From: Chitinophaga pinensis
GTDB taxonomy: Bacteria; Bacteroidota; Bacteroidia; NS11-12g; UBA955
DNA length: 64,000 nt
NCBI GenBank assembly: GCA_945890895.1
Contig: CAMDDG010000007.1
Span: 1-64,000 of the forward strand
Direction of reading: 5' to 3'
In this document: positions 12,005 to 64,000 of the stretch, in pieces
Layout of the letters: the number at the start of each line of letters is the position of its first letter
Numbering within the stretch: position 1 is the first letter of the stretch
The notes under the pieces: model-generated
What the model saw: only the letters and a program-made list of their open reading frames with translations
What the model was told of the DNA's origin: nothing
The model's database searches: none
Position numbers and translations under genes: made by a program

Positions 12005-12652
12005 ATGACATTACTTTCCATTTTAGATTTAGCACAAGATTGGCTATTGCATTTAGACGACAAATTGCAGGAAATCGTAGGAACCTACAAAACCCTCACC
12101 TACTTCATTTTGTTTGCCATCATCTTTGTGGAAACTGGACTGGTGTTGATGCCCTTCCTACCCGGTGATTCCCTATTATTCGCAGCAGGCAGTATTGCCG
12201 CCCTCGATGATACGCTCAACGTATATTACCTCATTCCCTTGCTGATTTTCGCTGCTTTATTGGGGGATAATACCAATTACTTTATCGGTTCCAAAATAGG
12301 CACGCGCATTTTCGACCTCAAATGGAAATTCCTCAAACGAGAATATTTGACCAAAACCGAAGAATTCTACGAAAAACACGGGGGGTACACCTTGATCATG
12401 GCGCGTTTCGTTCCCATTGTTAGAACATTCGCTCCTTTTGCCGCAGGCATGGGTTCCATGACCTACCGCAAATTCATTGGTTATTGCATTTCCGGTGCGG
12501 TATTGTGGGTTACATCCATTACCCTGTTGGGATATGCTGTTGGCGATTTACCTTGGGTAAAGAACAACTTTGAAACCGTAGTATTTGCCATCATTGGATT
12601 CTCCGTTGCACCCATGATTTACAAATACCTTCAATCCAAATGGAAAAAATAA
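12005..12652 (+). CDS. DedA family membrane protein
   Basis: FVETGLVLMPFLPGDSLLFAAGSIAA, MARFVPIVRTFAPFAAGMGSM. ATG at 12005 preferred over 11936. Confidence 0.88.
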   Translation: MTLLSILDLAQDWLLHLDDKLQEIVGTYKTLTYFILFAIIFVETGLVLMPFLPGDSLLFAAGSIAALDDTLNVYYLIPLLIFAALLGDNTNYFIGSKIGTRIFDLKWKFLKREYLTKTEEFYEKHGGYTLIMARFVPIVRTFAPFAAGMGSMTYRKFIGYCISGAVLWVTSITLLGYAVGDLPWVKNNFETVVFAIIGFSVAPMIYKYLQSKWKK

Positions 12653-13605
12653 TCCGACTCGGATTAATTGGAAAACCCATTTTCCACTCCAAAAGTCCAG
12701 AAATTTTCGCTGGTTTCTTTTCGGGGGAAGGCATCTCGGATGCGCAATATCAACTGTTTGAACTCAATCACATTGATGAACTCCCCGACTTAATTGCTAA
12801 AAATCCATTGCTGGGCGGATTCAACGTTACCATCCCCTATAAAACGGAAATCTTCAAGTATTTATCGCGGATTGACCCAAAAGCCGAAGCCATTGGAGCT
12901 GTAAATACGGTGAAAATCATCAGAAATCCGTTGAATGAATACAACAGCCATCCCCCGAAGAATGATGCCCGTAACATTGAATATGGAATTGAATCAACCA
13001 ATGAACCAGGGTCAATCCTTGGATCGAAAATCGAATCCAACGTTCAATTAATCGGGTACAACACGGATTTCGACGGTTTTGAATTCGCATTAAAATCCCT
13101 TCCTCATCAGAATTTTGAGCAAGCATACATTCTGGGAACGGGTGGTTCTTCCAAAGCCGTTGCAGCCGTTTTGACAAACTGCCAAATACCCTTTAAAAAG
13201 GTAAGTCGAAATTTGAAGGAGGGCAATAATTCTATTAATCAGAGCGTTAGAGCAAGCTCCGAACAGAATTGCAATTCAAAAGAAATAAAGGGAATTTTGG
13301 ACGAGTTTTCAAAATCAGAATTCAATATCAGTACTATCCGCTATGAGGAGTTTCTGAATTCAGAATTTCCTGAAAACACCTTGATCATCAATACCACACC
13401 TTTAGGTATGTGGCCGGAAGTGGAAAGTTGTCCCCCGATACCGTGGAATAAACTACCTAAAAGCACACAATTCATCGATTTGGTTTACAAGCCCCAAGAA
13501 ACCCAACTACTCAAAGAAGTCAAATTGCGTGGACTTTTAGGAATCAACGGACTTTCCATGCTTCAGAATCAGGCAGAAAAAGCTTGGGAGATATTCAAAA
13601 AATAA
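12640..13605 (+). CDS. aroE: Shikimate dehydrogenase with two low-complexity insertions
   Basis: GLIGKPIFHSKSPEIF, GGFNVTIPYKTEIF, IGAVNTV, ILGTGGSSKAV, INTTPLGMWP, GLSMLQNQAEKAWEIF. Confidence 0.92.
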   Translation: MEKIIRLGLIGKPIFHSKSPEIFAGFFSGEGISDAQYQLFELNHIDELPDLIAKNPLLGGFNVTIPYKTEIFKYLSRIDPKAEAIGAVNTVKIIRNPLNEYNSHPPKNDARNIEYGIESTNEPGSILGSKIESNVQLIGYNTDFDGFEFALKSLPHQNFEQAYILGTGGSSKAVAAVLTNCQIPFKKVSRNLKEGNNSINQSVRASSEQNCNSKEIKGILDEFSKSEFNISTIRYEEFLNSEFPENTLIINTTPLGMWPEVESCPPIPWNKLPKSTQFIDLVYKPQETQLLKEVKLRGLLGINGLSMLQNQAEKAWEIFKK

Positions 13606-13625
13606 ACGACCTTTCATTTTTTAGC

Positions 13626-13658
13626 AAAAAAATAGTCGCTGCATTAAACAGCGACTAT
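13626..13658 (-). terminator. Rho-independent terminator for the minus-strand gene at 13692-14321
   Basis: ATAGTCGCTG / CAGCGACTAT with 7-nt loop, followed by a T-run on the minus strand. Confidence 0.7.
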
Positions 13659-13691
13659 CAACAACTAATTCTACTTTGAATTAATCAACAA

Positions 13692-14321
13692 TTACCATTT
13701 GTAGAAAGCTCCTAATTTGAAGTTTTGACCTAATGAATATTGGTAAGTATTTTCAGCGGTAAGGTTATAATTATACCCTACTGTAACCCCCAAATTTTTA
13801 TAAACCAATTGATTCACACTTACAGCCACTGGGAAATAAATCTGATGGTCTACAAAATACACTTGATTGGTTTCAGGTTGAAAAACAACTTCATTACTTT
13901 GAGGATTCAAATAAGGTTTCCAACCCATTTGAATATCACGAGTTGTTAAGGTAGCCATACCAGCACCTGCGGCAACATTGAGACTTCCTGATTTCCAATT
14001 TAAAACTTTGGAAGAAGCCATCAGATTCAGGTGGGTCATATCCATAAATCCACCGTAATTTTTATTCAAATTCACTTTGTTTTCTTGGTAAGAAACGGTG
14101 GAATAACCTACTTCTGCACGCAAATCGATTTTTTTAGTCAATTTAAGTTCATAACCTAATTGAACGGAGTAATTTGCTGAAGATTCTGAAAATACCTTTT
14201 CAGAAAAATTCAACAAGCCATAGCTAACATCAATTCTTTGAGGAATTGACTGAGATTTCACTGCAGCCACTGCCAACAGCAGAGCGAGTGTAGAAATTGA
14301 AGTGCGAATCATTTTTTTCAT
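13692..14321 (-). CDS. Hypothetical outer-membrane beta-barrel protein
   Basis: Signal peptide MKKMIRTSISTLALLLAVAAVKSQ; alternating aromatic/hydrophobic strands; C-terminal aromatic. Confidence 0.6.
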   Translation of the reverse strand: MKKMIRTSISTLALLLAVAAVKSQSIPQRIDVSYGLLNFSEKVFSESSANYSVQLGYELKLTKKIDLRAEVGYSTVSYQENKVNLNKNYGGFMDMTHLNLMASSKVLNWKSGSLNVAAGAGMATLTTRDIQMGWKPYLNPQSNEVVFQPETNQVYFVDHQIYFPVAVSVNQLVYKNLGVTVGYNYNLTAENTYQYSLGQNFKLGAFYKW

Positions 14322-14642
14322 AACAACATAAATGGTGTTTTATCAAATTTACAATATGGTTTTGTCAATAGCATTACTAAAATTGGTGAAAATTTTTACG
14401 ATAAAATCCCAAACTCAATTGTGTGTAACACTAAAACTAAACAATGCAAACTTATAAACTTTCACAAAATCGGAATTAGTGAATTTTAACTAAAAATTTG
14501 TGTGAAATTTGGCAATATTATTCCAAAATCATACCAAAAAGAAAATCACCCAAATACAGTCAGTTGTGTGATATTTTAATATCATGATTGACAATTAAGC
14601 TTCGACTAATTTTGTGCATCATTAACTATAAATATTAAAAAT

Positions 14643-15260
14643 ATGGCATTAACACCTGAACAAAAAAGGGCAATAGCTTGGGTAGACTATGCAGCTGGTT
14701 TAGCATCAGTTGAAACAGGTCCTTTAAGTTTTGCTATTGGTGCAGCAGCATCTATGGCTTACTACTATGACAAGAAAGCAAGTGAAGGATGGGGAATAGT
14801 ATTCTACCCTCCTCAACCAATTCCAAGCACTAGCAATGACCTAGGTATACTTCACAATTTAACATGTGAGCAATTGGTTGCCAATGGATTCACTCAATCT
14901 AATTATGACAATATTATACAATCCGCAAGTGAAGTTAGGCCAGATTTATCCACAGAATTAAATGCAATTACTATATCATATTTCAATGAAAAAGTGAATT
15001 CGGTACAATTAATTGATTTAATAACGCCGGAAAGTGAACTAGAGTTCACATTAAATATAATTCCATTAAACGTTTATGATCAAAATATTTTCTTGCAAAC
15101 ATTAAATATTTTGCAAAACGCAAATGAAACTGAATGGGTCAATAATTTAAATGATTTGATTTTACAAATTTCTAGTTTCACCTTATCTGAAACAGAGAAA
15201 ACAGGATTAATAAATTCACTTCAGATTTTAAAACACAGTTTTGTGCTTTGGGGAAGTTAA
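14643..15260 (+). CDS. Hypothetical protein with Gly/Ala-rich hydrophobic N-terminal segment
   Basis: ORF in AT-rich region; LASVETGPLSFAIGAAASMAYYY; followed by a hairpin. Confidence 0.5.
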   Translation: MALTPEQKRAIAWVDYAAGLASVETGPLSFAIGAAASMAYYYDKKASEGWGIVFYPPQPIPSTSNDLGILHNLTCEQLVANGFTQSNYDNIIQSASEVRPDLSTELNAITISYFNEKVNSVQLIDLITPESELEFTLNIIPLNVYDQNIFLQTLNILQNANETEWVNNLNDLILQISSFTLSETEKTGLINSLQILKHSFVLWGS

Positions 15261-15276
15261 AAAAAACTATTTGGTT

Positions 15277-15307
15277 AATGGCTTTAATGGGCTTCATTAA
15301 TGCCATT
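15277..15307 (+). terminator. Probable terminator/hairpin after the 14643 CDS
   Basis: AATGGCTTTAATG / CATTAATGCCATT (12 of 13 pairs), 5-nt loop, followed by a T-rich run. Confidence 0.5.
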
Positions 15308-15714
15308 TTCATTTACGTGAGTCTTAAAATAGACAAGGAATTTAATTTAACTTTCCTACAAATATTTTTTAATGTTGTAGTATTAAAATCTATAATCTTG
15401 AATCTGAGGAACTGATTTTACTTATAGTAGCATTCTATAAAATCTATTGGGGTCTAGAAAAAGATGAATATGCACTAATCGATTATACACATACGTTGTG
15501 ACTTGTAAGTGGTTGCTTTTTTCGACTGATTGCAAATATAGTTTTAAGTATTTGAATTTTGAAATGTTCAATTCAAACAGAATTGAGCTCTGTTGCGGAG
15601 CAACTTACAAGGGATAAATTGTTCCGACGAAAACAATAGGGAGACACATCCCATTGCGTCTCACTTTTTATTTATTTTTCGAGTGTTATGTCTAGATACC
15701 CCCAATCATGCTAC

Positions 15715-16657
15715 CTATTCATTTGGTGTAAGAAAATTCAGTGTTTGATATGGACGCTCATTGTTATAATCGATTATCCAGGGCTCAGTCATCTGGTTTG
15801 CATGTTCTAGTGAAAAGAAAAGATTTGCATCTAATATCTTAACGGCAAGTTCTATTAAAACGTTCAATGATGGGCATTTTGTTGTGGTTTCACCTTTTGG
15901 ATATTTACCGATTCTATTCCCTTATTACTGAGCCAATATTAGAATCTTGCAAATGTAAACTCAGAGCCGTTGTCTATTCTAATTCTTCTGACATTATCAA
16001 GAGAATCAGACATAAAATCCATAGCCCATTCCATATTGGGAGCTAAGGGAACTTCAATGGGATTTGATGGGTTAACCGTTTTTAGGCTTTTCATCCGTTA
16101 GTACAAGCTAAATCCAACTTGTTCATATACCCTCCTGATTTTTGATACACCCAATTCCGGATGCTTTCTTTGCACCTTTACAATTACTTTTCTTTTACCC
16201 AATTTACTTGTTCCCACAACTTCTTCAATAGCATTAATTACAACTTCATCTTTCTTGGGCATTTGCTTTTGATAATACTTTGATGTTCGTGAGCAATTTA
16301 AAATTCTACACGCCTTAGCATGGCTTAATCCCCTAAATACTGACTTTACATAGGTTAAGCATTGCTATTTCTCATAAGACGTTACCACTTATTTGAATTG
16401 ACCTCCTTGAGAACATCAATCTATAATTATTGGTCTGCAACAATCCTTTTTAACCTTAAATTCTCCGATTCTAATTCCTTCACTTTGTGGAGTTCAGAGT
16501 ATGTCATACTAGCATACTTGCTCTTCCAATTGTAAAATGTTGGTTCCGAAATGCCATTCTCTCGGCAAATCTCATTTACCTTCTTGCCAGTTTCTTGTGA
16601 TTTCAAAATCTTCAAAATCTGAGCTTCTGTAAATCTTGTTTTTTTATTTTTTTGCAC
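15715..16657 (-). mobile_element. Degenerate IS3-family element (orfA plus frameshifted orfB)
   Basis: orfA helix-turn-helix RFTEAQILKILKSQETGKKVNEICRENGISEPTFYNWKSKY; fragments of DDE orfB in broken frames (RIRIDNGSEF, WIIDYNNERPYQTLNFLTPNE*). Confidence 0.85.
16427..16657 (-). pseudogene. IS3-family transposase orfA, probably truncated by in-frame stops
   Basis: After ...RIVADQ the same frame continues * L * IDVLKEVNSNKW*, which resembles a normal orfA end interrupted by TAA and TAG. Confidence 0.7.
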
Positions 16658-16897
16658 TTGTAAAAGCTAATACTCTAATTCTTAACTTGACACAAAAAAT
16701 CATCCCTTTACCAAATTAGTACATTGCATTGAAATACCCCTAAAAACACTAACTTCCTACATTGAATATTTGGTTAAGCGGTGACCAATTGTAGTGTGCA
16801 CTAGCCCCAAAAATAATATTTTTAACTTTTTACTGACATAATTCTATTATGTATATTTAAAAAATTCTAAACTACTTGCGACAAAATTCAATCTTTC

Positions 16898-17200
16898 ATG
16901 AACAATAAACATCTAATCACTCTTTCGGAAGCACAGGAAATGACACATGCATTTCAAAATTCTAGCCAATTTCAAAACCTAACTAAAGCTTGTATGATTG
17001 ACAAAAATGCGTATCAACAAGTCATCGATCAACCTGGCTGTGTTGGATTAAGGACTTATTTCGCATTGAATTCATCACAGATGCTAACAATTGTCGTAGT
17101 CGGTGTGGACGAAAACGGAAACGACTTGACTAGTGGAATTATATTGAACAAATCTGATGATTGTCCAACATTCTGTGCTAACAATTCTCTGTTAATGTAA
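16898..17200 (+). CDS. Hypothetical small protein with C-terminal CPTFC motif
   Basis: 100-aa ORF; CVGLRTYFALNSSQMLTIVVVGVDENGNDLT...DDCPTFCANN. Confidence 0.5.
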   Translation: MNNKHLITLSEAQEMTHAFQNSSQFQNLTKACMIDKNAYQQVIDQPGCVGLRTYFALNSSQMLTIVVVGVDENGNDLTSGIILNKSDDCPTFCANNSLLM

Positions 17201-17206
17201 ATAATC

Positions 17207-17797
17207 TTGTTGGCTTTCTACTTAAACATAGAGCTTTTTTTAATTTTGGTGTTATTCATCCAAACTAGCCTAAATCTCTGGTTATCTCCAAATTCGATTA
17301 GAAATTCAACTGAATTAAAGATCTATGTTTATATTTTATTTTTAAATAAAATGGCGTATCTGATTTTCAAAAAATCGGATGCGCTGTATTATTTTTTTCA
17401 CTCAGCTGCCCCTCTAGGCATTATTTTAAGTCTATGGTGGAGAGGAAAAAACCAATTTGATAGAATCATTTTTTCACTGCTTTTGGGGACGCTTTTTGTT
17501 TGGTACCTTTCTAATGATTTATTGTATTTCATTTTATACACTGTAGCAATTATGACATTAATAAACAAGGCTATTAACCTTGCTAGTGGTCCGAGCTCAA
17601 CAATGAAAAAATCCTTTTTACCTATAATACTATCGATAGATTTGTTTTTTGCATACATTTCTGTAATACTAAATATAGAGGAAATCGATTGGAGTAGATC
17701 ATTTTATATTTATTATTTGAAATACTTAATCATGCCATTTTCATTAATAACATTAATACTAATTTATGACAATAACAGGCGACATTCTACTTATTAG
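17207..17797 (+). CDS. Hypothetical polytopic membrane protein
   Basis: Several hydrophobic segments; overlaps the downstream histidine kinase start by 32 bp. Confidence 0.55.
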   Translation: MLAFYLNIELFLILVLFIQTSLNLWLSPNSIRNSTELKIYVYILFLNKMAYLIFKKSDALYYFFHSAAPLGIILSLWWRGKNQFDRIIFSLLLGTLFVWYLSNDLLYFILYTVAIMTLINKAINLASGPSSTMKKSFLPIILSIDLFFAYISVILNIEEIDWSRSFYIYYLKYLIMPFSLITLILIYDNNRRHSTY

Positions 17798-18536
17798 TTT
17801 ATTTGCAATTATTTTACCCTCTTTATTAATATTATTTGGCACAGCAATTTACAGTATAACAATTATCAACAGATACAAAAAAATAGTTTCAAGGTTATAT
17901 AGGGCTAGTTTTAAAGGAATTGATAGTGAAAGAAAAAGAATCGCAAGTGAATTACACAATCAACTTGCTGTACACTTTATTAATATTAATACTGATTTCG
18001 ATGAAATCCGGAAGACCATTGACAAAAAACAAGAAGATCAATTCAAGAAATTAGAATTAAACCTGGATCTATTAAAAGATGATCTCCATACCACCATTGA
18101 AAATTTATACCCCAAGGAATTGGTAGCATTCGATTGGGAAAAAAGTTTACTTAAATTATCACAACAAATGACTAATTCTGTTACGAGTGTATCATTTGAA
18201 TCATTTGCAAATAATTATCCACCCCAAGAAAAACTCCCACATGTATTTTGGGTTGTGCAAGAGATTATCACAAATGCAATAAAGCATGCCAAAGCAAAGA
18301 GGGTAATTGTATCAATCATGGATGAGAATAAAAACTTCATTATTTCAATTCATTACAAATCAATAATAAGTTCTACATCATGGATACATGGTACACCCAA
18401 TAAACGCGACGATGGAATGGGACTTTGTATTATTAAAGATAGACTTAAAATTGTGGGAGCCACAGAAAAAATTGATATACAAAATAGTATAGTAACACAT
18501 ACAATTTCAATTCGAAATGAAAATACTGCTAATTGA
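17766..18536 (+). CDS. Small membrane-anchored sensor histidine kinase (HisKA_3/NarL-type)
   Basis: One N-terminal TM, ERKRIASELHNQLAVHF phospho-His motif, VVQEIITNAIKHAKAKRV N-box, DDGMGLCIIKDRL G-box. Confidence 0.8.
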   Translation: MTITGDILLISLFAIILPSLLILFGTAIYSITIINRYKKIVSRLYRASFKGIDSERKRIASELHNQLAVHFININTDFDEIRKTIDKKQEDQFKKLELNLDLLKDDLHTTIENLYPKELVAFDWEKSLLKLSQQMTNSVTSVSFESFANNYPPQEKLPHVFWVVQEIITNAIKHAKAKRVIVSIMDENKNFIISIHYKSIISSTSWIHGTPNKRDDGMGLCIIKDRLKIVGATEKIDIQNSIVTHTISIRNENTAN

Positions 18537-19134
18537 CGATCATTACGCAATTCTGTCAATTTTAGAACAGAGTATCCTAAAAATTGTGCCGAGTGCTGAA
18601 ATTATTAGTTGTCTGTCACTAATTGAAGCAACGCCATTATTAACTAGAGAAAACCAAATAAACTATGTTATTACTGATTTAGAACTATTTGAAGGATGTA
18701 ATTTAGAAATATTAGAAGTCAGTAAAATGCTCCGAATTCCCAGTTTAATTTACAGTTCACATGTGAATCAAATTTTATTATCTGAAGCAAATAAACTCAA
18801 CGTAAAATGTTACATTTCCAAAAAATCAAATTTAATTCATTTGGAGTTGGGCTTAAAAGCACTGCTTAAAGGAAGTATTTATTTTTGTCCTGAAGTTTTA
18901 AAAGTTCAGGACTCGAACAATCAATATAAAGAAACGCAAAAATTAGAAATAACTAAGGGTCAAAAAAAAATTATTGATTTGCTATCTAAAGGATATAGCA
19001 GGTTTGAAATTCGTGACGTACTAAATATTTCACTAAATACTGTAAACAATCAAATAGCTCGAGCCCGTGAATTAAATGATTGTTCAAACACTGAAGAACT
19101 CCTGCGCCGTTTTAATTTTTGGGATAACACTTAA
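18517..19134 (+). CDS. Response regulator, REC + LuxR-type HTH
   Basis: MKILLIDDHYAIL, VITDLELFEG, LIYSS...ISKKS, C-terminal LSKGYSRFEIRDVLNISLNTVNNQIARA. Overlaps the kinase by 20 bp. Confidence 0.75.
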   Translation: MKILLIDDHYAILSILEQSILKIVPSAEIISCLSLIEATPLLTRENQINYVITDLELFEGCNLEILEVSKMLRIPSLIYSSHVNQILLSEANKLNVKCYISKKSNLIHLELGLKALLKGSIYFCPEVLKVQDSNNQYKETQKLEITKGQKKIIDLLSKGYSRFEIRDVLNISLNTVNNQIARARELNDCSNTEELLRRFNFWDNT

Positions 19135-19278
19135 ACTTTGGAAATATTTATTTGTCGGCAATGTAAGTTCAAACAACTTTAACACTGTTTTTAATTTCCA
19201 AAAATCAAATGATCAACAGATCACAAACCAATTCGACTCAATCAATAATAATACGAATTTTCAACATACTCTCATCCC

Positions 19279-19902
19279 ATGCACAAAATTCTGGTACTTG
19301 AGGATCATCCCGCAATTCATGATTACATATTGAAAGCAGTTAATGAATTAAATCTTGACATCCGAATGGAGTTTACAACCAATTCAGAAGACGCACTGCT
19401 AAAGTTGAAATCCAATTTGCCGCCTGACTATTTCATAAGTGATATTCAATTAAACGACAGAAAAGTAACCATAGCTATTGAAACTGCATCAATTCGAAAA
19501 ATTCCATTCATGGTTTATTCGTCTTTTGCACACAAAACATTAACTAACTTATTTGACCAACTAGGAGGAATTTCCTATGTGAGCAAATCTTCACCCTTTC
19601 ATGAATTGGTTTCAGGCATCCGTCATTTAATCAGCAAAAAACCATTCAAATGTCTTAAAACACTTGAAAATTTAAATTCAAATAAGAATTCCCAAATAGA
19701 AATTCAAAAACCTGAATTCTCACACTCAGAGCAACAAATAATTTTGTGTGCCATTGAAGGTCTCAGCATTAAAGAAACTGCTCAAAAATTACATAAATCC
19801 ACCAGCACTATAAGCAATCAACGAATTAGTCTTATGCTTAAAAACGAGTGTAATATGCAGGAACTTATTAGAAGTTATCTTTACTGGTATTCTGAAGGAT
19901 AA
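19279..19902 (+). CDS. Second response regulator, REC + LuxR-type HTH
   Basis: MHKILVLEDHPAIHDYI, FISDIQLND, MVYSS...VSKSS, AIEGLSIKETAQKLHKSTSTISNQ. Confidence 0.75.
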   Translation: MHKILVLEDHPAIHDYILKAVNELNLDIRMEFTTNSEDALLKLKSNLPPDYFISDIQLNDRKVTIAIETASIRKIPFMVYSSFAHKTLTNLFDQLGGISYVSKSSPFHELVSGIRHLISKKPFKCLKTLENLNSNKNSQIEIQKPEFSHSEQQIILCAIEGLSIKETAQKLHKSTSTISNQRISLMLKNECNMQELIRSYLYWYSEG

Positions 19903-19918
19903 CTACCGAACTGAACAT

Positions 19919-20024
19919 AACCAAACTACTCAAAGAAGCCAAATCGCGTGAGCTATTAGGAATCAACGGACTTTCCATGCTTCAGAAGCAGGCAGAAAAA
20001 GCTTGGGAGATATTTAAAGGGTGA
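19919..20024 (+). pseudogene. Duplicated, diverged 3' end of aroE
   Basis: Encodes TKLLKEAKSRELLGINGLSMLQKQAEKAWEIFKG* versus aroE C-terminus TQLLKEVKLRGLLGINGLSMLQNQAEKAWEIFKK*; about 10-11 mismatches over ~103 nt by eye. Confidence 0.9.
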
Positions 20025-20062
20025 TTTTTAAAGTTGACATAATTAATGCCATTCCCTCAAAT

Positions 20063-20605
20063 CACTATCTTCTAATCAAATATTCTTGGTTTACTAATGT
20101 GTAACTGCCATTTTTAAATGCTTTGAACTTAGAATCATAAATAGTTAAATCCAATCTCTTTTTTGTGTTTTTCTCTACAGCAAAAGAAACTCCCACATTT
20201 TCAGAAACAAATTGATAAGTGCTATCGCAGACAAAACCCTTATAATCACTTAGATTATTATTGTCAATTCTAATTGTGCCTTCTGGAATTTCACCATCTA
20301 AAGTTATAAATTCTGGCTTGAATCGTGATTTCTTTATGTTTAATACGTTTTAAAGTTACTATTTTTTCCATTTTTAAAACGTACTCTTTTCGGGGGAGCT
20401 TACAACAACAACATCTTTGTATTACTTCTTGTCGAATTTCTTTTTTTACTTCTACTAGTTCAGCATTTTCTTCTTTGATTTCTTGACTATCTTTATTGAT
20501 AAATTCCTGATGCTCAAATACTTGTTACTGTGACTCACTTTCTTGTTTGTCTATTGAACTGCAAGAAAATAGTAATGTTAATAATACTAGGTTTGTTATT
20601 TTCAT
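20063..20605 (-). pseudogene. Decayed lipoprotein gene
   Basis: MKITNLVLLTLLFSCSSIDKQESESQ*QVFEHQEFINKDSQEIKEENAELVEVKKEI..., in-frame TAA plus frameshift into KKSRFKPEFITLDGEIPEGTIRIDNNNLSDYKGFVCDSTYQF.... Confidence 0.6.
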
Positions 20606-21135
20606 AAAATTCTTGTTTGAAGTTCTTTTATAAATTTATTCCAATCGTAGGGGGATTTTTGATGGTTTAAAGCATAGCCAAACTTATTTATTGAGATAAA
20701 AACTAAGTCATATTCTCCATTAGAGAAGCCATCGAGTACAGGCAAATTATAACTATGATAAGATTTAGGACCTTTTGCTATTTTCCAAAATAAACTAGGA
20801 TTCTTTTCTTCTAAAAATTGAGCTACCAATAGACCAAAATCTACTACAACAGCCAACCCTTGATTATTCAGCTTCATTCCTCCATCAAATTCACGAATGG
20901 TATGAAAGTGCTCATTCTGTATAAGATAGAAAACTTTTCTGTTAACTTCAGTTATCAACTTTAAATTATTTTCGAAATTCGTGTAATTATTGATGTATTG
21001 AAGTAGAAATTTAACCCTTTCATATCTTACAGAAAGAAACCAGTCAAAATAGGCTTGAGCTTCTTTTTTATTCCAATTTTGAGCTCCTTTTTCAGCAAGC
21101 TCGTTTGGTGGCATAAATAATGGATATTCACTCAT
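20602..21135 (-). CDS. Hypothetical protein, possible immunity-type protein
   Basis: 177-aa soluble ORF starting 10 bp after the end of a short frame resembling a polymorphic-toxin tail. Confidence 0.5.
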   Translation of the reverse strand: MSEYPLFMPPNELAEKGAQNWNKKEAQAYFDWFLSVRYERVKFLLQYINNYTNFENNLKLITEVNRKVFYLIQNEHFHTIREFDGGMKLNNQGLAVVVDFGLLVAQFLEEKNPSLFWKIAKGPKSYHSYNLPVLDGFSNGEYDLVFISINKFGYALNHQKSPYDWNKFIKELQTRIL

Positions 21136-21144
21136 TGTATCAAT

Positions 21145-21280
21145 TTAAAATGTTTGACCTGTATCTGTTAATTTAATTTCACTTTTGCCTGCTTCTCGCA
21201 ATTTTTTATTAAGCCCATCAACATAGTTTTTAAATCCATCTGTATAACCTCCTTTTCCTGTTTTTTCATGCTTATTCCCT
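21145..21280 (-). pseudogene. Possible remnant of a polymorphic-toxin C-terminus
   Basis: Open frame ...RIGNKHEKTGKGGYTDGFKNYVDGLNKKLREAGKSEIKLTDTGQTF* with no start codon in context, immediately upstream of the 21135 CDS. An alternative ATG frame is also open. Confidence 0.3.
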
Positions 21281-21282
21281 AT

Positions 21283-21728
21283 TCGTTTTTATAAACACTA
21301 ACTATTGATAGTCCGTATTTTTTATAGTTCAATGAGTAGTCTTTTATTTCATCTGCATTTTTTAAGCCAACTATATCTACAATAACACTTTGAAGTTTAT
21401 TTTGGGGTTCACTTATTAAACTCTCTGGGGCATAAACTGTTTTTGTCTGCTTTTTATCGGTTTTATAATAAACTTCATTTGTATAAACAATATAATCACT
21501 TGCTTAATTAGAAACTTTTGCATTTGACAAAGACAAAACTATTCCTTCTTTATTACCTGTAATTCCCCAATTTTTGGCTTTAATATAAACAGGTCTAACT
21601 ACCTGTTCTAAATTAACAGTAATCATATTTTCTTTTGCTGGTAAAAATTCCTCTTTCCTCCATGGACGATAATACAAGTAACCTCCTGCAATTAAAGCTA
21701 CTAAAACCAATAATAATAATCTTTTCAT
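21283..21728 (-). pseudogene. Small membrane-anchored protein gene interrupted by one in-frame TAA
   Basis: MKRLLLLVLVALIAGGYLYYRPW...SLSNAKVSN*ASDYIVYTNEVYYKTDKKQTKTVYAPESLISEPQNKLQSVIVDIVGLKNADEIKDYSLNYKKYGLSIVSVYKNE*; both halves in the same frame. Confidence 0.65.
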
Positions 21729-21742
21729 TTTACTAATAGCGT

Positions 21743-22276
21743 TTATTTCATCTTTTCAAAATAATATAAATCTCCAAACATTTTTCCGTTCTCTTCTTCA
21801 CAGTGAATGAAGATCTCTTGGGGTATGCTATCTCTAAAACTTATTCGTGTTGTTTGATTGCAGCTGTTGGATTTTTGTTGAATTATTAATGTGTCATTTA
21901 CTACTCTAGGTAAAATTTCAAAACTACCACCAACATAATATGACCCCAAAACACTATTATTCTCATTATATAAATAGATTGAAGAATTTGCTCGTTTAGA
22001 ATCTTCGTAAAGACCGCTTAATATTGTGTAAGCAACAAATTTCAACATTCCATCGCTTTCTGAATAAGCATCTCCTATGTAAGTTACTTTGTACTCAAGA
22101 ACCTCTTTAGGTTTCATTAATTTAAAAAAATACTCCTGGCCTTTCTCATTCTGATTTAAAACAAGTTGTTTAATTTCTGTTGCAAAATCCTGTTTTACAA
22201 TTTCTTTGGTTTTATTTCTTTGACAAGAACAAAAAAGAATAATCAGTAAAAACTTAAATGTCTCTCTAGTAATCAT
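21743..22276 (-). CDS. Hypothetical lipoprotein
   Basis: MITRETFKFLLIILFCSCQRN signal/lipobox. Confidence 0.5.
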   Translation of the reverse strand: MITRETFKFLLIILFCSCQRNKTKEIVKQDFATEIKQLVLNQNEKGQEYFFKLMKPKEVLEYKVTYIGDAYSESDGMLKFVAYTILSGLYEDSKRANSSIYLYNENNSVLGSYYVGGSFEILPRVVNDTLIIQQKSNSCNQTTRISFRDSIPQEIFIHCEEENGKMFGDLYYFEKMK

Positions 22277-22429
22277 TGATGGTTGGTTTTTTAGAGTTGT
22301 TAAACAATTGCATTAATTAATCTGCTTTTTTCAGGTCCAGTTTTTTCGACCACATCAATACATCTTGATGATTTCTTTAACTTTATCATTTTTTTTAATT
22401 TTTTGAAAACATCACTTTTTGAACCGTTT

Positions 22430-23101
22430 CTAATTAAATTGCAATTTCCAATATTGTTCAACTGTTTTTGTAGGATTGTCATAAAATTGAATTTCTAATG
22501 ATTCACCTTTTACATACAGAAATTCATCTCTCCAAAAACATTCAACAGGACTAAATTGCATCTGACTTAGTTCAATAATTTTATCGATTTTAATATTTGT
22601 GCGGCTATTATCATCTAGATTATTTTGAATTTTCCAAATTTGAAAACCTATTTCTTCTCCTTCAATTCCGTAAGGTTTTATGCAAGCAAAGTATTTATTA
22701 TCTTCTGAAAATATAGGGATATTCCATATCTCAATTATTTTAATTTTCGCGTCTATTAAACTAAACTTCAATCCCTCGGAATAAACAGTTTGGACTAAAT
22801 GTCGATTTATTATTTCATAATAACCTAAATATTCATAATTTATATGAAATTCTTCAGACATTGAATCATCCTTCAAACTCAAAGTCGAATCAATTCCAAC
22901 AATTTTGATTTTTCCATTTATTTTTTTTATTTTATTAGTATCTAGAAGATTTCTTTCTTTATTCTTATGAAAAGTATTGTATTCCTCAACGGAAATCGGA
23001 ATTATTGAAAATTGATTTATTTCTTTTGTATTAGAATTATAATGAATGCAACAACCGCATACTAATAAAAGAAAAATAATAAATTTATAAGTTTTCATCA
23101 A
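22430..23101 (-). CDS. Hypothetical lipoprotein
   Basis: MMKTYKFIIFLLLVCGCCIHYN signal/lipobox. Confidence 0.5.
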   Translation of the reverse strand: MMKTYKFIIFLLLVCGCCIHYNSNTKEINQFSIIPISVEEYNTFHKNKERNLLDTNKIKKINGKIKIVGIDSTLSLKDDSMSEEFHINYEYLGYYEIINRHLVQTVYSEGLKFSLIDAKIKIIEIWNIPIFSEDNKYFACIKPYGIEGEEIGFQIWKIQNNLDDNSRTNIKIDKIIELSQMQFSPVECFWRDEFLYVKGESLEIQFYDNPTKTVEQYWKLQFN

Positions 23102-23213
23102 AAATCACCTCTATATTGTAAGTAGACCTAAAACTCGAACTGGACGAATTTCGGCAAAAAACAAAAATTCCTATTCAAATCAAATATCAGATAAATCTCA
23201 ATCAAAATTTTAA

Positions 23214-23870
23214 TCATTGCACCATCCAAAAGGGTGTAACTTTGAATTTTTCAAACTCAAAGTTACATTTCTCATTAATCAATTTATATTTTTTACTCTC
23301 TAATAAATCGGCAAAACGAAGTAAATCATCATACTTAAAATTTTCGATGGCAGGAATAGGTGTCTCTAATAAAATTTTTTGATAGCTTAAATATGGATTA
23401 TTAACTTCATAAAAATACTTTTCTATTATATCATTTTTGAGCTTAGGATAATGCTCTATAGAATATTGCGGCATTAATTTACTATCAAGAATAAAAATTT
23501 TATAAATTGTTTTAGAATTAAAGTCGGGATAATTTCTTAATCTAAAAAAACAAAATCTGACTTTCTCCTTTTTATCTACCAATATATAGGTATACGAATT
23601 ATTCATTAGAATTGAATATTTTTCATCGTCATATTTGACATATAGATCAACCTTTTTATTTTTAGCAACGTCACTATAAATAGAATTATTACATATATTT
23701 TTCAATTTTTCAAGTTCATTTAAATCAGCGGGATAATTAAATTGCCGATTGATAGTTTTACAACCACCTTTGCCATCTGTTTTCTTGTTATGATTTTCAG
23801 GACTAGTTTCGTTGCAACTAATTGCTATAAATCCGAAAACAAAAAAGAATATTAATTTTGAATTAGCCAT
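23214..23870 (-). CDS. Hypothetical lipoprotein
   Basis: MANSKLIFFFVFGFIAISCNET signal/lipobox. Confidence 0.5.
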   Translation of the reverse strand: MANSKLIFFFVFGFIAISCNETSPENHNKKTDGKGGCKTINRQFNYPADLNELEKLKNICNNSIYSDVAKNKKVDLYVKYDDEKYSILMNNSYTYILVDKKEKVRFCFFRLRNYPDFNSKTIYKIFILDSKLMPQYSIEHYPKLKNDIIEKYFYEVNNPYLSYQKILLETPIPAIENFKYDDLLRFADLLESKKYKLINEKCNFEFEKFKVTPFWMVQ

Positions 23871-24166
23871 TTGTACTTTTTAGGTTTTATTCTTAAAGTT
23901 AATACACGAAAATCAATTCTCTCCGTTACACAACACCAATCAACTCAAACCATCTACAAAATAGTACTTTTCTCTCATTTTTCCAGGTATTACAGTCAAA
24001 AACACGACAAAAACCTCATTTTTATGTTTTTCAAATTTTCTGCAACGAATCAAACATTAATTTCAATTGGTCTCAAAATGGAATAAGTCGCTTCTAACGG
24101 TAGAAAATGAAAAAATGCAATTTTAATTTTCTCCAAAAAAAAACGACCTTTACACTTCTTTAATCT

Positions 24167-27100
24167 ATGCGTAATTTCGTTTTTTATCCAAGTGTAAATA
24201 AGCCCCTTTTATCGCTTTGCACCCTACTCTGCTTTTCAAGTTTCATTCATTGGGGATGTAAATCTCCGAAATCAAAATTGGATAGTGCCGTTGCCGATGA
24301 AATTCGAAAAATACAGGAATCATCCAATTCCGATGAAACCAACATGGGTTACATCTATAAATCCAATATCTATCAGCAAAATCTTACCGCTCCCTATCAA
24401 AAAACACCCGATAAAATCTGGACACTGAAACATACCGACCTCGATTTATCCCTAAATTGGAATAATCGTACCGTCCACGGACAAGCCGCTCTAATACTAC
24501 AAAATCAGTTTCATTCCCAGTTAAATAGTGTAGAACTGAATGCGCAAGGAATGGATATTACGTCAATAAAAATAGATACTTCACTGAATCAACTGAATCC
24601 CAATTTTAAAGAATTCAATCTGCAAATTCCCGCTCAAAGTGTAAATGCAAATTGGAGCTACAACGATTCGGCCATACTGAAAATCCAACTGCCCTACTCC
24701 ATTAAGCGAAATCAAAGCATACGATTGTTCATTTCCTATATGGCGAATCCCGAACGAAAAGTGTACAACAAACCTACTACCGCTGGGGCAGCTATTTCGG
24801 CTGATAAAGGAGCGTATTTCATCAATCACGACCTCACACACCCGGTGTACCCCCGACAATTTTGGACACAAGGTGAAACCCATGCATCTTCGCGTTGGTT
24901 TCCTACCATCGATCATCCCAGTCAAAAACATACACAAACCCTGAGAATTACGTATCCCGACACCATGATTTCCATCAGCAACGGGAAACTTTCGAGCAGC
25001 AAAACCATCCCCCAAAACAAAGAAAAAACGGATTGGTGGACCATGGATCAACCCCATTCGGTGTATTTGACCATGTTGGGTGTGGGAAATTGGAAGAAAA
25101 CAGAATCGGAAAGCGCAGCGAATAAATCGGGCAAAGTGCCGGTGAGCAGTTACGTGGAGCCCGTTTTCGAAAAAGCAGCCAACGATCATTTTAAAAACAC
25201 CTCCGAAATGATTGAATTCTTCGGAAAATATACCGGCGTTAGTTATCCTTGGGGGAAATTTGATCAAGTTTGCGTTCGTGAATTTGTGAGTGGAGCCATG
25301 GAAAACACCTCCTGCGTAGTGCACAACGAACGCTTGATGGATGCTGAAAACGACATGGAAGATTATGTGTCGCACGAGTTATTCCACCACTGGTTTGGGG
25401 ATTTAGCCACCTGCGAAAACTGGTCCGACTTAACTTTAAATGAAAGTTTTGCCACCTACGGGGAATACCTTTGGAGGGAGCATAAATACGGTGTGGCGAA
25501 TGCTCAAAACTGGATGAAATCCAACTCACAAATTTCTGAATCTGCGCATTTCAAAGCATTGGTAAATCACTATTACAACAATCCCGACGAGCAATTCGAT
25601 GATGTTCGATACAACAAAGGAGCGGCCATTTTGCACATGCTTCGCAATTACATTGGCGATGAGAATTTTCAAAGCAGCTTGAAATTATACCTCAGCCGAT
25701 TTGCGTATAAATCGACCAACGTTCACGATTGGAAAAAGGTGGTTGAAGAAGTTTCAGGCAGAAATATGGACGATTTTTTCAATTCTTGGTACTTCGCCGG
25801 TGGCAAGTTGAGCATTGACTATTACATCGGTCGCGACACCACCAACACCCAGCAAAAAGGCTATCGGTTGTATATACATTCTTATGCGAATATGTCGTCG
25901 TATTCTTCGGATGCTGAAACCGCAAATTCCCCGAAATTGACTCCGTATTACGGCAGCAACAAGGCGGTGGCATTGCCCATTCGTTGGGGAACTATTAACG
26001 CCAACACGAGCACCGGCACTCAATATTTCACTAAAGACACCACCATTTACACCCAAGCCGATCAAATCAATTATTCGATTTATTTGGGAGAAACCTTGCC
26101 GGATTTCGTGTTGCTCGACCCCAACACCACGCTGTTATCGGATGATATTCAGCCCAATTATCCAATGACTTTTGAACACCGACTGGAAGAGCGTAAATCG
26201 CTGACTAATAAACATTCCGACATCTGGAATCCGGAATTATTATTTCAATTGGGTTACAATGCCATGCATATCGCTCCAGAATCGTATTTGGTCAAGAATT
26301 TACCTATTTTTTTCGGGGGATATTTGTACGTTGCTTCCCGCTTTTGGCCTGCAAATAACACCGATTCAGTCGCCTTTCAATTTGGACAGAAAATGGGATT
26401 GGGAACGGACATCAGTCAAGGGGTTCAAACAAAATTGATACAAAAATTAATTGAATACAATCATTCACCGAATTATAAATACTTGCGCGAATGGTCGATA
26501 CAACAATGGATTGCGTTTGCGTTTAATTTGGAAATTTTCTCTGAAATTGAGTTAGCTGAAGAAGCTGAAAAATTGAGAAAAACTGCCATTGCAGATATCG
26601 AATCCACGATCAATGATAAATCTGCGGAAAAGTCGATTTATCTTTCAAGTTTGATTTCAGGAGTATTGATTTCTCCAAGTTTAGAAGAGAATCCCACTAC
26701 ATCTGCCGAAAGTAAAACACCTTCAAATGGCGGATTAAACAAGGGTGTTACAGACCCTAAACCTTCTTTCATGGAAATCGATTGGAAAAAAGACTATTCG
26801 TTGATTCAGTTAGACAGTCTTCGTCGTTCATGGAAAGACCAGTCCATTGACATGTATTTGCATTTTTACAGCAATCGCAACAACTGCAAACAAACCGGAA
26901 CGGTTGAAACCCGCAATTCTGATTCCTTGTTGATGGATTTTGCAAAGAAACAACTAACTCCATTTATCCGCAGCAATGAAGTGGATGTTTTACTTCCCAT
27001 TCAGGATCGTCACTTGCTTTCTCGCAACGTGAAATTCTTGTTTGAAATCTACAATCGCACCTACCACAAATTGAAGGTTACCAACAAGCTGACTCAAGAA

Positions 27101-27496
27101 TACATCGATTTTGAAAAAGAACTGTGGGAAAAGTTCTTTTTGATGCCATTGATTGGCGACCATCGCAATGAAATATTATCGCAATTATTCGAGAGTTTGT
27201 CGGAATCTGTGGAAGATGAACTATTTTCTGCATTGGAATTTCAGGAGCGCTTGCAAAAATCAGATGCTTTTGCCATTACGGGTGGAGCGCTCTATAATTT
27301 GAACTTGAATGAATGTTACGAAAAACTAGAGCTACTCAAAACCTTATCTAACAACGAATTAACAATCAACAACAACCCATCGCCCAAGAAATTCATGGAT
27401 TACCATTTGGGAAAATTAAAAATGGTATCTAAAAATACGGAAGCAAAATCATCCAATCGCTTGGCATTGATGAAATTGAACGAATTTTTAAAATGA
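24167..27496 (+). CDS. M1 family zinc aminopeptidase, large lipoprotein-like form
   Basis: GAMEN motif (VSGAMENTSCVVHNE) and HELFHHWFGDLATCENWSDLTLNES; N-terminal FSSFIHWGCKS. Confidence 0.93.
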   Translation: MRNFVFYPSVNKPLLSLCTLLCFSSFIHWGCKSPKSKLDSAVADEIRKIQESSNSDETNMGYIYKSNIYQQNLTAPYQKTPDKIWTLKHTDLDLSLNWNNRTVHGQAALILQNQFHSQLNSVELNAQGMDITSIKIDTSLNQLNPNFKEFNLQIPAQSVNANWSYNDSAILKIQLPYSIKRNQSIRLFISYMANPERKVYNKPTTAGAAISADKGAYFINHDLTHPVYPRQFWTQGETHASSRWFPTIDHPSQKHTQTLRITYPDTMISISNGKLSSSKTIPQNKEKTDWWTMDQPHSVYLTMLGVGNWKKTESESAANKSGKVPVSSYVEPVFEKAANDHFKNTSEMIEFFGKYTGVSYPWGKFDQVCVREFVSGAMENTSCVVHNERLMDAENDMEDYVSHELFHHWFGDLATCENWSDLTLNESFATYGEYLWREHKYGVANAQNWMKSNSQISESAHFKALVNHYYNNPDEQFDDVRYNKGAAILHMLRNYIGDENFQSSLKLYLSRFAYKSTNVHDWKKVVEEVSGRNMDDFFNSWYFAGGKLSIDYYIGRDTTNTQQKGYRLYIHSYANMSSYSSDAETANSPKLTPYYGSNKAVALPIRWGTINANTSTGTQYFTKDTTIYTQADQINYSIYLGETLPDFVLLDPNTTLLSDDIQPNYPMTFEHRLEERKSLTNKHSDIWNPELLFQLGYNAMHIAPESYLVKNLPIFFGGYLYVASRFWPANNTDSVAFQFGQKMGLGTDISQGVQTKLIQKLIEYNHSPNYKYLREWSIQQWIAFAFNLEIFSEIELAEEAEKLRKTAIADIESTINDKSAEKSIYLSSLISGVLISPSLEENPTTSAESKTPSNGGLNKGVTDPKPSFMEIDWKKDYSLIQLDSLRRSWKDQSIDMYLHFYSNRNNCKQTGTVETRNSDSLLMDFAKKQLTPFIRSNEVDVLLPIQDRHLLSRNVKFLFEIYNRTYHKLKVTNKLTQEYIDFEKELWEKFFLMPLIGDHRNEILSQLFESLSESVEDELFSALEFQERLQKSDAFAITGGALYNLNLNECYEKLELLKTLSNNELTINNNPSPKKFMDYHLGKLKMVSKNTEAKSSNRLALMKLNEFLK

Positions 27497-60170: not shown

Positions 60171-62588
60171 TCAACGAGTATGTTTCAATTCGTAAAGGGT
60201 TTCATAAATCTGGGCCTTCAACATGGCATCAGTCATCTTAGTTTCCAAGTATTTATTTCTTTGATACTTCACTTTTGATGTCTTTGTATCGTAAACGATG
60301 GTGTATTCCTTCAGATAAGAATCTACCTGCAGTTGCCAGTACAAATAATACACGAAAACAGGGGGATATAAAATGGTGTAAATTATATAATCGAGTTGTA
60401 TCTCCCGAGGAAGTACCTTATAATCAATTTTCGTCCAGCAAAGTAAGTCAGTTTGATAATCTTTCATGGGTTCATTGACATATTGGGAATAGAAAAGCAG
60501 CATTTCATTGGTGTCATTATTCAAACGTTCCATCATCCAATCATTGAGTTGAGCATAATCATTCAGCGATTCAGTGGTCATTTCAGAACCCGCTGAATTC
60601 GTTAACACTTTGATATTCAAACCAGAAATTTTACCTACATACAACCATTGTTTTGTTAATTTTTCTCTATATTTTTCTTCGCTGAACAACTTCTTTTTAC
60701 TCGATCTACTTAAGCCATTCGTAAATGAAATTTGTGGTTGAAATACTACGACACCATTAATCTCTGGATTGGGATGCTTGTATTTTTCTTTCTTATCTTT
60801 TTCAAATTTAGCCCTCCTTTCTGAAGGGGTTAATTTCGAAGAGTTTTTGGATACCAGATCAAAATCTATTTTTACACTTTCGAGGTACTTCTTTAATTCG
60901 TCCTGATTGGGAAAGTCAATAAAAGCACCATAAAAGTAAGGCAATTGTTCATTCGGTTTTATAACGGAACTTACAGGAATTTCCGCACTTACAGATTGTG
61001 ATCTACTGCGTGGATTTTTTAATAAATTCGAACCATTTTCTTCTTTTGGGGACACTGGAATTTCAGGCTTAACGGGTTGAGAATTAACCGGAGAAATATT
61101 TACTGCAGAATTGGAATTATTATTAATTACTCTCTTGCTATACGGAACGAATGCTAGAAAATCCATTAAAAAGATTCGCCCCTTATTTTGCAATGTTTGA
61201 AAAGCCCGATCTCTAACATCCATCAAAAAAACATCATTGGGATACTTTAGATTTTCCTGCCAAATAACACGCACCGCAAATGCTCCCAATTCTTTATCTG
61301 CCAACGAATTGATTTCAGCAAAGAAATTACGCCATTCTCCCTTATTATCTGAAACACTGCATCCAAAATCCTTTAAATTTTTACCTCTAAAACGATGTTC
61401 AGCTAAGGCATATATGCTCATGGCTTTAACTTTCGAAAGAAATAAGCTCTTGCCATACAACAATTCCATCACCCGAGAAAGATAAAAGGATTGTCCATAA
61501 TCAGAACGACGCAAATACAATAACAGCAATTCATGTCGTGCAATCTTCTGCATATAATGAAATGCACTTTCATCAAGTACAAATCGTTTCTTGCCAGACA
61601 TATCCAACCGCGCAATTCGATCTTTGAGAATTAAAATGCGTTGATTCAAACTGGGATGTGTTCCTTCCAAATCGGCTTCTTCTAATACTTTGTTTTTGGA
61701 TTCTGCTTCCAAAACAGACTTCATTGAAGCAGCGGCCAAATCACGAACCGTTTGTGGGAATATATAATTTTCACTTGCTAATGAATCCAATGAATAAGGG
61801 GTCTCCAAAAAAGGATAATCGGTATACTTCAACATTTCGAACACATATATGCCTTCATTCAAATCATACTGTGTATTTTTGAGCATTTCATATCCCAAGT
61901 CGTCGGCTTCAAATTCTTGATCCTTAGAGAACCTATAGATGGATTTAAGTTTGTCTTCAAAACTGGAATTTCGGGTACTTGAAGCCATTAGCTTACGATT
62001 CTCTTTATACTGCAAAAGTGAGTGTTTCTTTACATAATGCTGAATTTCATGTGCCAAAATAACCGCTAGTTGGGATTCATTTTCCAAACGCACAAGCAGT
62101 CCTACACTCACAAAAATCAAACCGTTGGAAGTAGTGTAAGCATTAGGTACATGGGAACGCAACACGTAAAACTGAATTTCATCCAATAAATCTTTTCTTT
62201 CTTTTATCAGATTTAGTCCAACTTTTTCAACATAATCCGAAAGTGGATTCCCAAAAAGCACTTGACCGCTGCTGAGGATTTGATCTTCAAAAAAGCTTAC
62301 CTCCACAGCGTGAGATTCTTCAGTTCTTCGCTCTTTACCTGTTTTTCCGGTATTCTGTATCTGATTCATGGCCTCTAAAGCCTTTTTACTACTAAGACTT
62401 TTCAGATTTGCAGGCAAATCACCCTCACAATAAATGGGTTTATAGTTATTAAAATCTATTTTGCTGTTTTGAGAAAATCCCAAATTCATTATTCCCAGTA
62501 CAGAAAACAATGCAAAAATTCGATCATATTTTTTCCATTTATTAAATAAACTATTCATACAGTTAGAATTTATAACAAAAATGCGCAT
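60171..62588 (-). CDS. M48-family metalloprotease (long form with low-complexity linker)
   Basis: HEIQH zinc motif (LAVILAHEIQHYVKKHSL), EFEADDLGYEML, THPSLNQRI. Confidence 0.88.
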   Translation of the reverse strand: MRIFVINSNCMNSLFNKWKKYDRIFALFSVLGIMNLGFSQNSKIDFNNYKPIYCEGDLPANLKSLSSKKALEAMNQIQNTGKTGKERRTEESHAVEVSFFEDQILSSGQVLFGNPLSDYVEKVGLNLIKERKDLLDEIQFYVLRSHVPNAYTTSNGLIFVSVGLLVRLENESQLAVILAHEIQHYVKKHSLLQYKENRKLMASSTRNSSFEDKLKSIYRFSKDQEFEADDLGYEMLKNTQYDLNEGIYVFEMLKYTDYPFLETPYSLDSLASENYIFPQTVRDLAAASMKSVLEAESKNKVLEEADLEGTHPSLNQRILILKDRIARLDMSGKKRFVLDESAFHYMQKIARHELLLLYLRRSDYGQSFYLSRVMELLYGKSLFLSKVKAMSIYALAEHRFRGKNLKDFGCSVSDNKGEWRNFFAEINSLADKELGAFAVRVIWQENLKYPNDVFLMDVRDRAFQTLQNKGRIFLMDFLAFVPYSKRVINNNSNSAVNISPVNSQPVKPEIPVSPKEENGSNLLKNPRSRSQSVSAEIPVSSVIKPNEQLPYFYGAFIDFPNQDELKKYLESVKIDFDLVSKNSSKLTPSERRAKFEKDKKEKYKHPNPEINGVVVFQPQISFTNGLSRSSKKKLFSEEKYREKLTKQWLYVGKISGLNIKVLTNSAGSEMTTESLNDYAQLNDWMMERLNNDTNEMLLFYSQYVNEPMKDYQTDLLCWTKIDYKVLPREIQLDYIIYTILYPPVFVYYLYWQLQVDSYLKEYTIVYDTKTSKVKYQRNKYLETKMTDAMLKAQIYETLYELKHTR

Positions 62589-62640: not shown

Positions 62641-64000
62641 ATGAATGGACTAAAATTTCCCCGAAATTTCGGTTTTTTCCGAAATTCCATCTCACTTTTT
62701 ATTTTAACTACATTATGTAATTTCAATGTATTAACGGCGCAAAAAGACTCAAAATCGCCTTTAGACTTCAATGACTACAAACCTATTGGTTCAGATGGAG
62801 AACTTCCTGAAAAACTCAAGACGAGTAGCAGTATAAAGGCGCAAGAAGCTTTGAAAAGAATAAAAGTTTCTGGCAAAAAAAGAAAAGAAAGAAAAGCAGA
62901 AGAGGCACATGCAGTCCAAGTAAGTTTTTTTGAGGATCAGATTCTAAGTTCCGGACAAATTTTATTTGGCAATCCAATAGCAGATTATGTACAAAAGGTG
63001 GGTCAATATTTAATTAAAGATCAAGATGATTTACTAAATGAATTGCAGTTTTATGTGTTAAAGTCTCATGTACCCAATGCTTATACAACATCTAATGGCA
63101 TGGTTGTAGTCAGTATAGGATTATTGGTTCGTTTAGAAAATGAATCCCAGTTGGCTGTAATTTTAGCACATGAAATTCAGCACTATATAAAGAAACACTC
63201 CTTGGTTCAATTTAAAGAAACTCAAAAGGCAATTTCTGAAACAAGGGGCAACTCTTCCTTAGATGATAAGTTAAAATCCATGTACCGATTTTCTAAAGAC
63301 CACGAATATGAGGCAGATAATTTGGGCTATGAGATGTTAAAGAAAACAGAGTACGATCTCAATGAAGGCATATATGTATTTGAAATGCTAAAATACACAG
63401 ATTACCCATTTCTTGAAACCCCATTCACGATAGATTCTCTTTCAAATCAAAGCTATGTATTTCCTAAAACTACACTTGATTTAACACAGTCGTTGCTGCA
63501 ATCTGCAATAGAAAAAGAGCAAAACCTAGAAAATTCAGACGAAGACGAATTGGAATCTACTCATCCCAGTTTAAGTCAAAGGATTTTAGTTCTCAGAGAT
63601 CGGATTGCTAAATTGGACATGAAAGGTAAAAAGAAATTTATTATGGATGAACACTCATTCCATTTAATGCAAAAAATAGCTCGACATGAACAATTGCTTT
63701 TACACATAAGAAGAGCGGATTATGGCCAAGCATTTTATCTTTCCAAAGTAATGGAATTGCTTTATGGAAAAAGTTTATTTTTATCCAAAATAAAAGCGAT
63801 GAGTATTTACGCTCTTGCTGAACACCGTTTTAAGGGTCATGATTTAAAGGATTATGGCTGTAGTGTATTAGAAAACAAAGGCGAATGGAGGAATTTATTT
63901 GCGGGGATAAATGCTTTAACTGAAAATGAACTAAGTGTTTTGGCAGCTAAGGTCGTTTGGGAAGAATGGAGCAAATATCCCCAAGACGAGTTTTTATTGA
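62641..64000 (+). CDS. Second M48-family metalloprotease, paralogue (partial, runs off window end); not in the ORF track
   Basis: Hand translation from ATG 62641: ...HAVQVSFFEDQILSSGQILFGNPIADYVQKVG...LAVILAHEIQHYIKKHSLVQFKE...EYEADNLGYEMLKKTEYDLNEGIYVFEMLKYTDYPFLETPF...; open to the window end. Confidence 0.9.
   Translation, partial: MNGLKFPRNFGFFRNSISLFILTTLCNFNVLTAQKDSKSPLDFNDYKPIGSDGELPEKLKTSSSIKAQEALKRIKVSGKKRKERKAEEAHAVQVSFFEDQILSSGQILFGNPIADYVQKVGQYLIKDQDDLLNELQFYVLKSHVPNAYTTSNGMVVVSIGLLVRLENESQLAVILAHEIQHYIKKHSLVQFKETQKAISETRGNSSLDDKLKSMYRFSKDHEYEADNLGYEMLKKTEYDLNEGIYVFEMLKYTDYPFLETPFTIDSLSNQSYVFPKTTLDLTQSLLQSAIEKEQNLENSDEDELESTHPSLSQRILVLRDRIAKLDMKGKKKFIMDEHSFHLMQKIARHEQLLLHIRRADYGQAFYLSKVMELLYGKSLFLSKIKAMSIYALAEHRFKGHDLKDYGCSVLENKGEWRNLFAGINALTENELSVLAAKVVWEEWSKYPQDEFLL

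Follow-up and report, generated by a model that had tools for sequence, protein, structure and literature searches.

The joint between aroE and the gene for an M1 family peptidase carries, in this genome, an insertion that is real, layered and clearly bounded, and ordinary in kind. The window, that is, the whole 64-kb stretch of DNA analysed here, comes from the 67.7-kb contig 7 of a draft assembly that totals 2.87 Mb in 163 contigs. With moderate confidence, we propose that accessory DNA entered the aroE/M1 peptidase joint on at least two occasions, via ordinary recombination.

Ten congeners and one genome from a neighbouring genus have the gene order dedA–aroE–M1 peptidase, with ahcY (S-adenosylhomocysteinase) located upstream of dedA in all ten congeners. 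The aroE stop reaches the start of the M1 peptidase gene in these genomes or is no more than a few bases away from it, and the empty site that the initial annotation had proposed to seek in relatives is therefore present in the ten congeners. In the window, the two genes are separated by 10.5 kb (13606–24166). Compared with the adjoining genes of the congeners, this distance defines an insert of 10.5 kb, and not of 6.4 kb. Among congeners with a readable locus, only this genome had an occupied aroE/M1 joint. A close relative was not found in the collections searched, the nearest genomes compared sharing only about 40% AroE identity, and neither donor DNA nor a half-filled intermediate was detected in the relatives compared.

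The insert is divided into two segments, X and Y, by a second, diverged copy of the aroE 3′ end (tail 2), the first copy (tail 1) being part of aroE itself (Table 1). Both segments are lower in GC content than the flanks (0.403 on the left and 0.374 on the right), and third-position GC falls from approximately 0.42–0.50 in the adjacent genes to 0.17–0.33 within the insert. Together with the ten empty sites, these values bear out the original description of AT-rich DNA inserted at the aroE 3′ end.

Table 1. Features of the aroE–M1 peptidase locus (positions in the window)
Feature	Position	Strand	Remarks
aroE	12640..13605	+	Full length; Pfam Shikimate_dh_N; orthologues in congeners
Tail 1, first repeat copy	13500..13599	+	100 bp of aroE before the final codons; by alignment
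Left edge repeat, 20 bp	13595..13614	+	aroE end plus 9 bp; TCAAAAAATAAACGACCTTT
Segment X, 6.3 kb, GC 0.318	13606..19918		Absent at the aroE/M1 joint in ten congeners
Degraded IS3-type element, ends approximate	15609..16708	-	HTH_Tnp_1 in orfA (16427-16657); short inverted ends
Two-component operon	16898..19902	+	100-aa protein, membrane protein, histidine kinase, two response regulators
Tail 2, diverged second copy of aroE 3′ end	19919..20018	+	By alignment; own stop ends at 20024
Segment Y, 4.1 kb, GC 0.279	20019..24138		Small minus-strand genes without family matches
Right edge repeat, 20 bp	24132..24151	+	Probable remnant of the original aroE end; TCCAAAAAAAAACGACCTTT
M1 family peptidase	24167..27496	+	Pfam Peptidase_M1; direct aroE neighbour in congeners

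Alignment of the two tails confirmed the repeat of the aroE 3′ end, with its own stop, that had been noted about 6.4 kb downstream of the gene. The copies are identical at 92 of 100 positions, without gaps and at an offset of 6419, and differ at 12 positions once the comparison is extended to the ends of the stop codons (13605 and 20024). The local score of the repeat was 160, whereas no value above 38 arose when the insert was shuffled 100 times, and self-BLAST of the window gave E = 6e-35 for the tail pair; chance is thus excluded. A search of the 2.87-Mb genome detected only two copies of the aroE tail, both at this locus. The similarity starts and ends sharply, and no further piece of aroE was detectable in the 10.5-kb insert. 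Tail 2, cut short at its 5′ side, retains an open reading frame with its own TGA stop; its terminal sequence is TTTAAAGGGTGA, without the aroE end seen in the 20-bp edge repeat. A fusion of tail 2 to the preceding response regulator was considered and rejected, since the frames differ and the regulator stop precedes tail 2.

We then compared the substitutions between the tails with the variation among congeners. Of the eight substitutions per 100 bp, two are silent and six alter five codons; no stop or frameshift has arisen. All five altered codons are variable among congeners, but 20 of the 33 tail columns are variable, and this agreement is weak when taken alone (p ~0.07, our own arithmetic). 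The residue most common in congeners is carried by tail 1 at 13531 and by tail 2 at 13567, and both copies thus appear to have changed. These two sites hint that a pair of diverged alleles fits better than one-sided decay. As the collections searched yielded no close relative, the derivation of tail 2 from a related strain, suggested at the outset, stays a supposition. The arrangement of residues at the same two codons would also fit a single crossover between them. More changed residues are found near the protein end in tail 2, for example a G-to-E change at a position that is largely conserved.

Next, the outer boundaries of the insert were examined. A 20-bp sequence at the end of aroE recurs at the far side of segment Y, the two copies matching at 18 of 20 positions and the right copy ending 15 bp before the M1 peptidase start. 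Across both strands of the 64-kb window, nothing other than the right copy matches the left edge 20-mer at 16 or more of its 20 positions. This repeat is short, A-rich and imperfect, and its local score was reached by 3 of 1000 shuffles of the right-edge region. The outer edges share CAAAAAA(T)AAACGACCTTT, whereas tail 2 ends TTTAAAGGGTGATTTTT, indicating that the junction cores differ. Judged from the sequence, the right edge repeat probably marks the true right edge of the insert, and it would represent the original aroE end left beside its old neighbour. Read in this way, it sets the outer edges at 13605 and ~24138. The island boundary proposed in the initial annotation thus holds on the left, at the aroE end, while the right boundary shifts from tail 2 (20024) to ~24138, as AT-rich, lineage-specific DNA goes on for 4.1 kb past tail 2 and up to the edge repeat.

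Segment X contains an outer-membrane-like gene, a 205-aa orphan, an IS3 remnant and a two-component operon, the last two of which had already been recognized between the tails and are both real. Among 72 family genomes, the outer-membrane-like gene and the 205-aa orphan were each found in none of the other genomes, and the 205-aa protein gave no match against phage genomes. In the IS3-type element, orfA is readable and orfB is broken; a second DNA copy of it was not found in this genome. Relatives of the two-component operon are frequent in this bacterial family, and this genome by itself yielded eight response-regulator matches. The operon plan (100-aa protein, membrane protein, histidine kinase, one or two response regulators) is recurrent. 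Across the operon copies, the 100-aa protein shows 50–60% identity, and 28 of its positions, three of them cysteines, are invariant, while the kinases and regulators mostly show 26–45% identity. No family, PDB-sequence or significant fold match was obtained for the 100-aa protein (model mean pLDDT 71), and the kinase gave only 22% identical, uninformative Rhizobium matches among plasmids. Since paralogues of this operon are common in the bacterial family, its presence does not call for a distant mobile element. Paralogous genes are probably also represented elsewhere in the window by an inverted related pair at 61290-62458 and 62762-63930, 69% identical over 1.2 kb.

Segment Y consists of small genes, several with lipoprotein-like starts, for which no convincing family match was found. 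The one gene tested was present in one other family genome, at an unrelated location. A weak PADLOC match to a restriction-enzyme model was obtained at 20602-21135 (E = 0.0024), and the PHROGs search gave no meaningful family. By reading only, a minus-strand lipoprotein-type gene at 20030-20605 appears to be broken. Two intergenic sequences, at 23115-23160 (46 bp) and 20352-20408 (57 bp), recur at 84–89% identity on contigs C144 and C48 of this genome, and no mobile-element signature was found for either.

In the layered acquisition that we favour, segment Y would have entered at the last aroE codon, the displaced aroE end staying beside the M1 peptidase gene. Segment X would then have been added by recombination inside the aroE tail with an incoming molecule in which X was joined to a diverged aroE tail, and tail 2 would be the scar of that event. 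Either a single crossover (insertion-duplication) or a homologous exchange at one end combined with an illegitimate joint at the other end would give the same product, namely full aroE, X, truncated aroE tail and Y. The present aroE may accordingly combine resident and incoming sequence. That Y came before X is not proven. A full gene followed by foreign DNA and a shortened direct repeat of its end is the layout of a single-crossover or one-sided recombination product. In an assay of one-sided recombination in Escherichia coli, most of the events examined were partial duplications of the target gene, of 109–950 bp, ascribed to single crossovers (PMC3240628). The gene for DprA, a transformation protein, is present in the genome, which permits the uptake of free DNA but does not prove it.

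Serial site-specific integration at the aroE 3′ end, by elements that brought a replacement tail and whose integrase was later lost or lies elsewhere, would make tail 2 an older attachment site. The succession of aroE, X, tail, Y and aroE end fits such tandem integration, and islands often rebuild the gene that they enter (PMC12884075). However, neither a tyrosine integrase nor a resolvase was found on the contig by Phage_integrase and Resolvase searches, the three junctions lack one common core, and the IS remnant is the only mobility-type gene in the insert. A search for an integrase elsewhere had been proposed at the outset; integrase genes are present on other contigs of this genome, and none was found on this one. 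We therefore regard serial integration as unlikely. Less probable still is a related arrangement, in which the aroE 3′ end serves as an attachment site for recombinase-less cargo units that bring a replacement aroE tail with them and depend for movement on a recombinase acting in trans from another part of the genome. A conserved 29-mer of aroE was absent from the viral contigs searched, a contig scan for aroE relatives gave distant ones only, and the literature searched yielded no report of aroE as a hotspot for island insertion.

The draft state of the genome also raises a chimeric assembly, with aroE–X of one strain joined at 19918/19919 to the aroE tail, Y and peptidase gene of a co-occurring strain; an assembly in 163 contigs is fragmented, and strain graphs can break at a gene end diverged by 8%. 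This explanation is less likely, and we consider it improbable, as the window contains no N, the bin holds no second complete aroE, the contamination estimate is 0.43% and the parts do not overlap at the junction in a way that would prompt joining. Slightly more doubtful is a tandem duplication of aroE, followed by deletion of most of the second copy and later entry of accessory genes between the copies. The greater alteration of tail 2 at the protein end would agree with decay of a spare copy, but tail 1 is also derived at one site, and only the last 100 bp of aroE is present, with no other remnant in 10.5 kb. Such a history requires a clean large deletion plus independent insertions, and a full tandem aroE in relatives, which had been named as one finding that would speak for simple decay, was seen in none of the congeners.

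Layered acquisition places this locus near several known systems. As in single-crossover insertion-duplication and homology-facilitated illegitimate recombination (PMC3240628), foreign DNA lies beside a stretch homologous to the resident gene, and the truncated direct copy of the gene end is of the kind left by the single-crossover form (109–950 bp). Unlike in that system, the outcome alone is seen here, the repeat is 8% diverged and a second insert lies beyond it. The locus resembles gene-rebuilding integrative islands (PMC12884075) in that the 3′ end of a housekeeping gene was entered, the gene is intact and a short repeat of the gene end lies at the far side; it differs from them in having no recombinase found, no core common to all junctions and no mobility genes. 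It shares with integration hotspots, that is, variable sites between conserved neighbours, the conserved flanks, sporadic AT-rich accessory genes and an IS remnant, but among readable congener loci only this genome is occupied.

These observations indicate that the locus preserves, in readable form, the stepwise acquisition of genes at a single chromosomal joint where no mobile element is visible. They also illustrate that, without a comparison of relatives, the scar of a gene end may pass for the boundary of an island. The finding would gain in importance if the aroE 3′ end were truly a reusable entry site.
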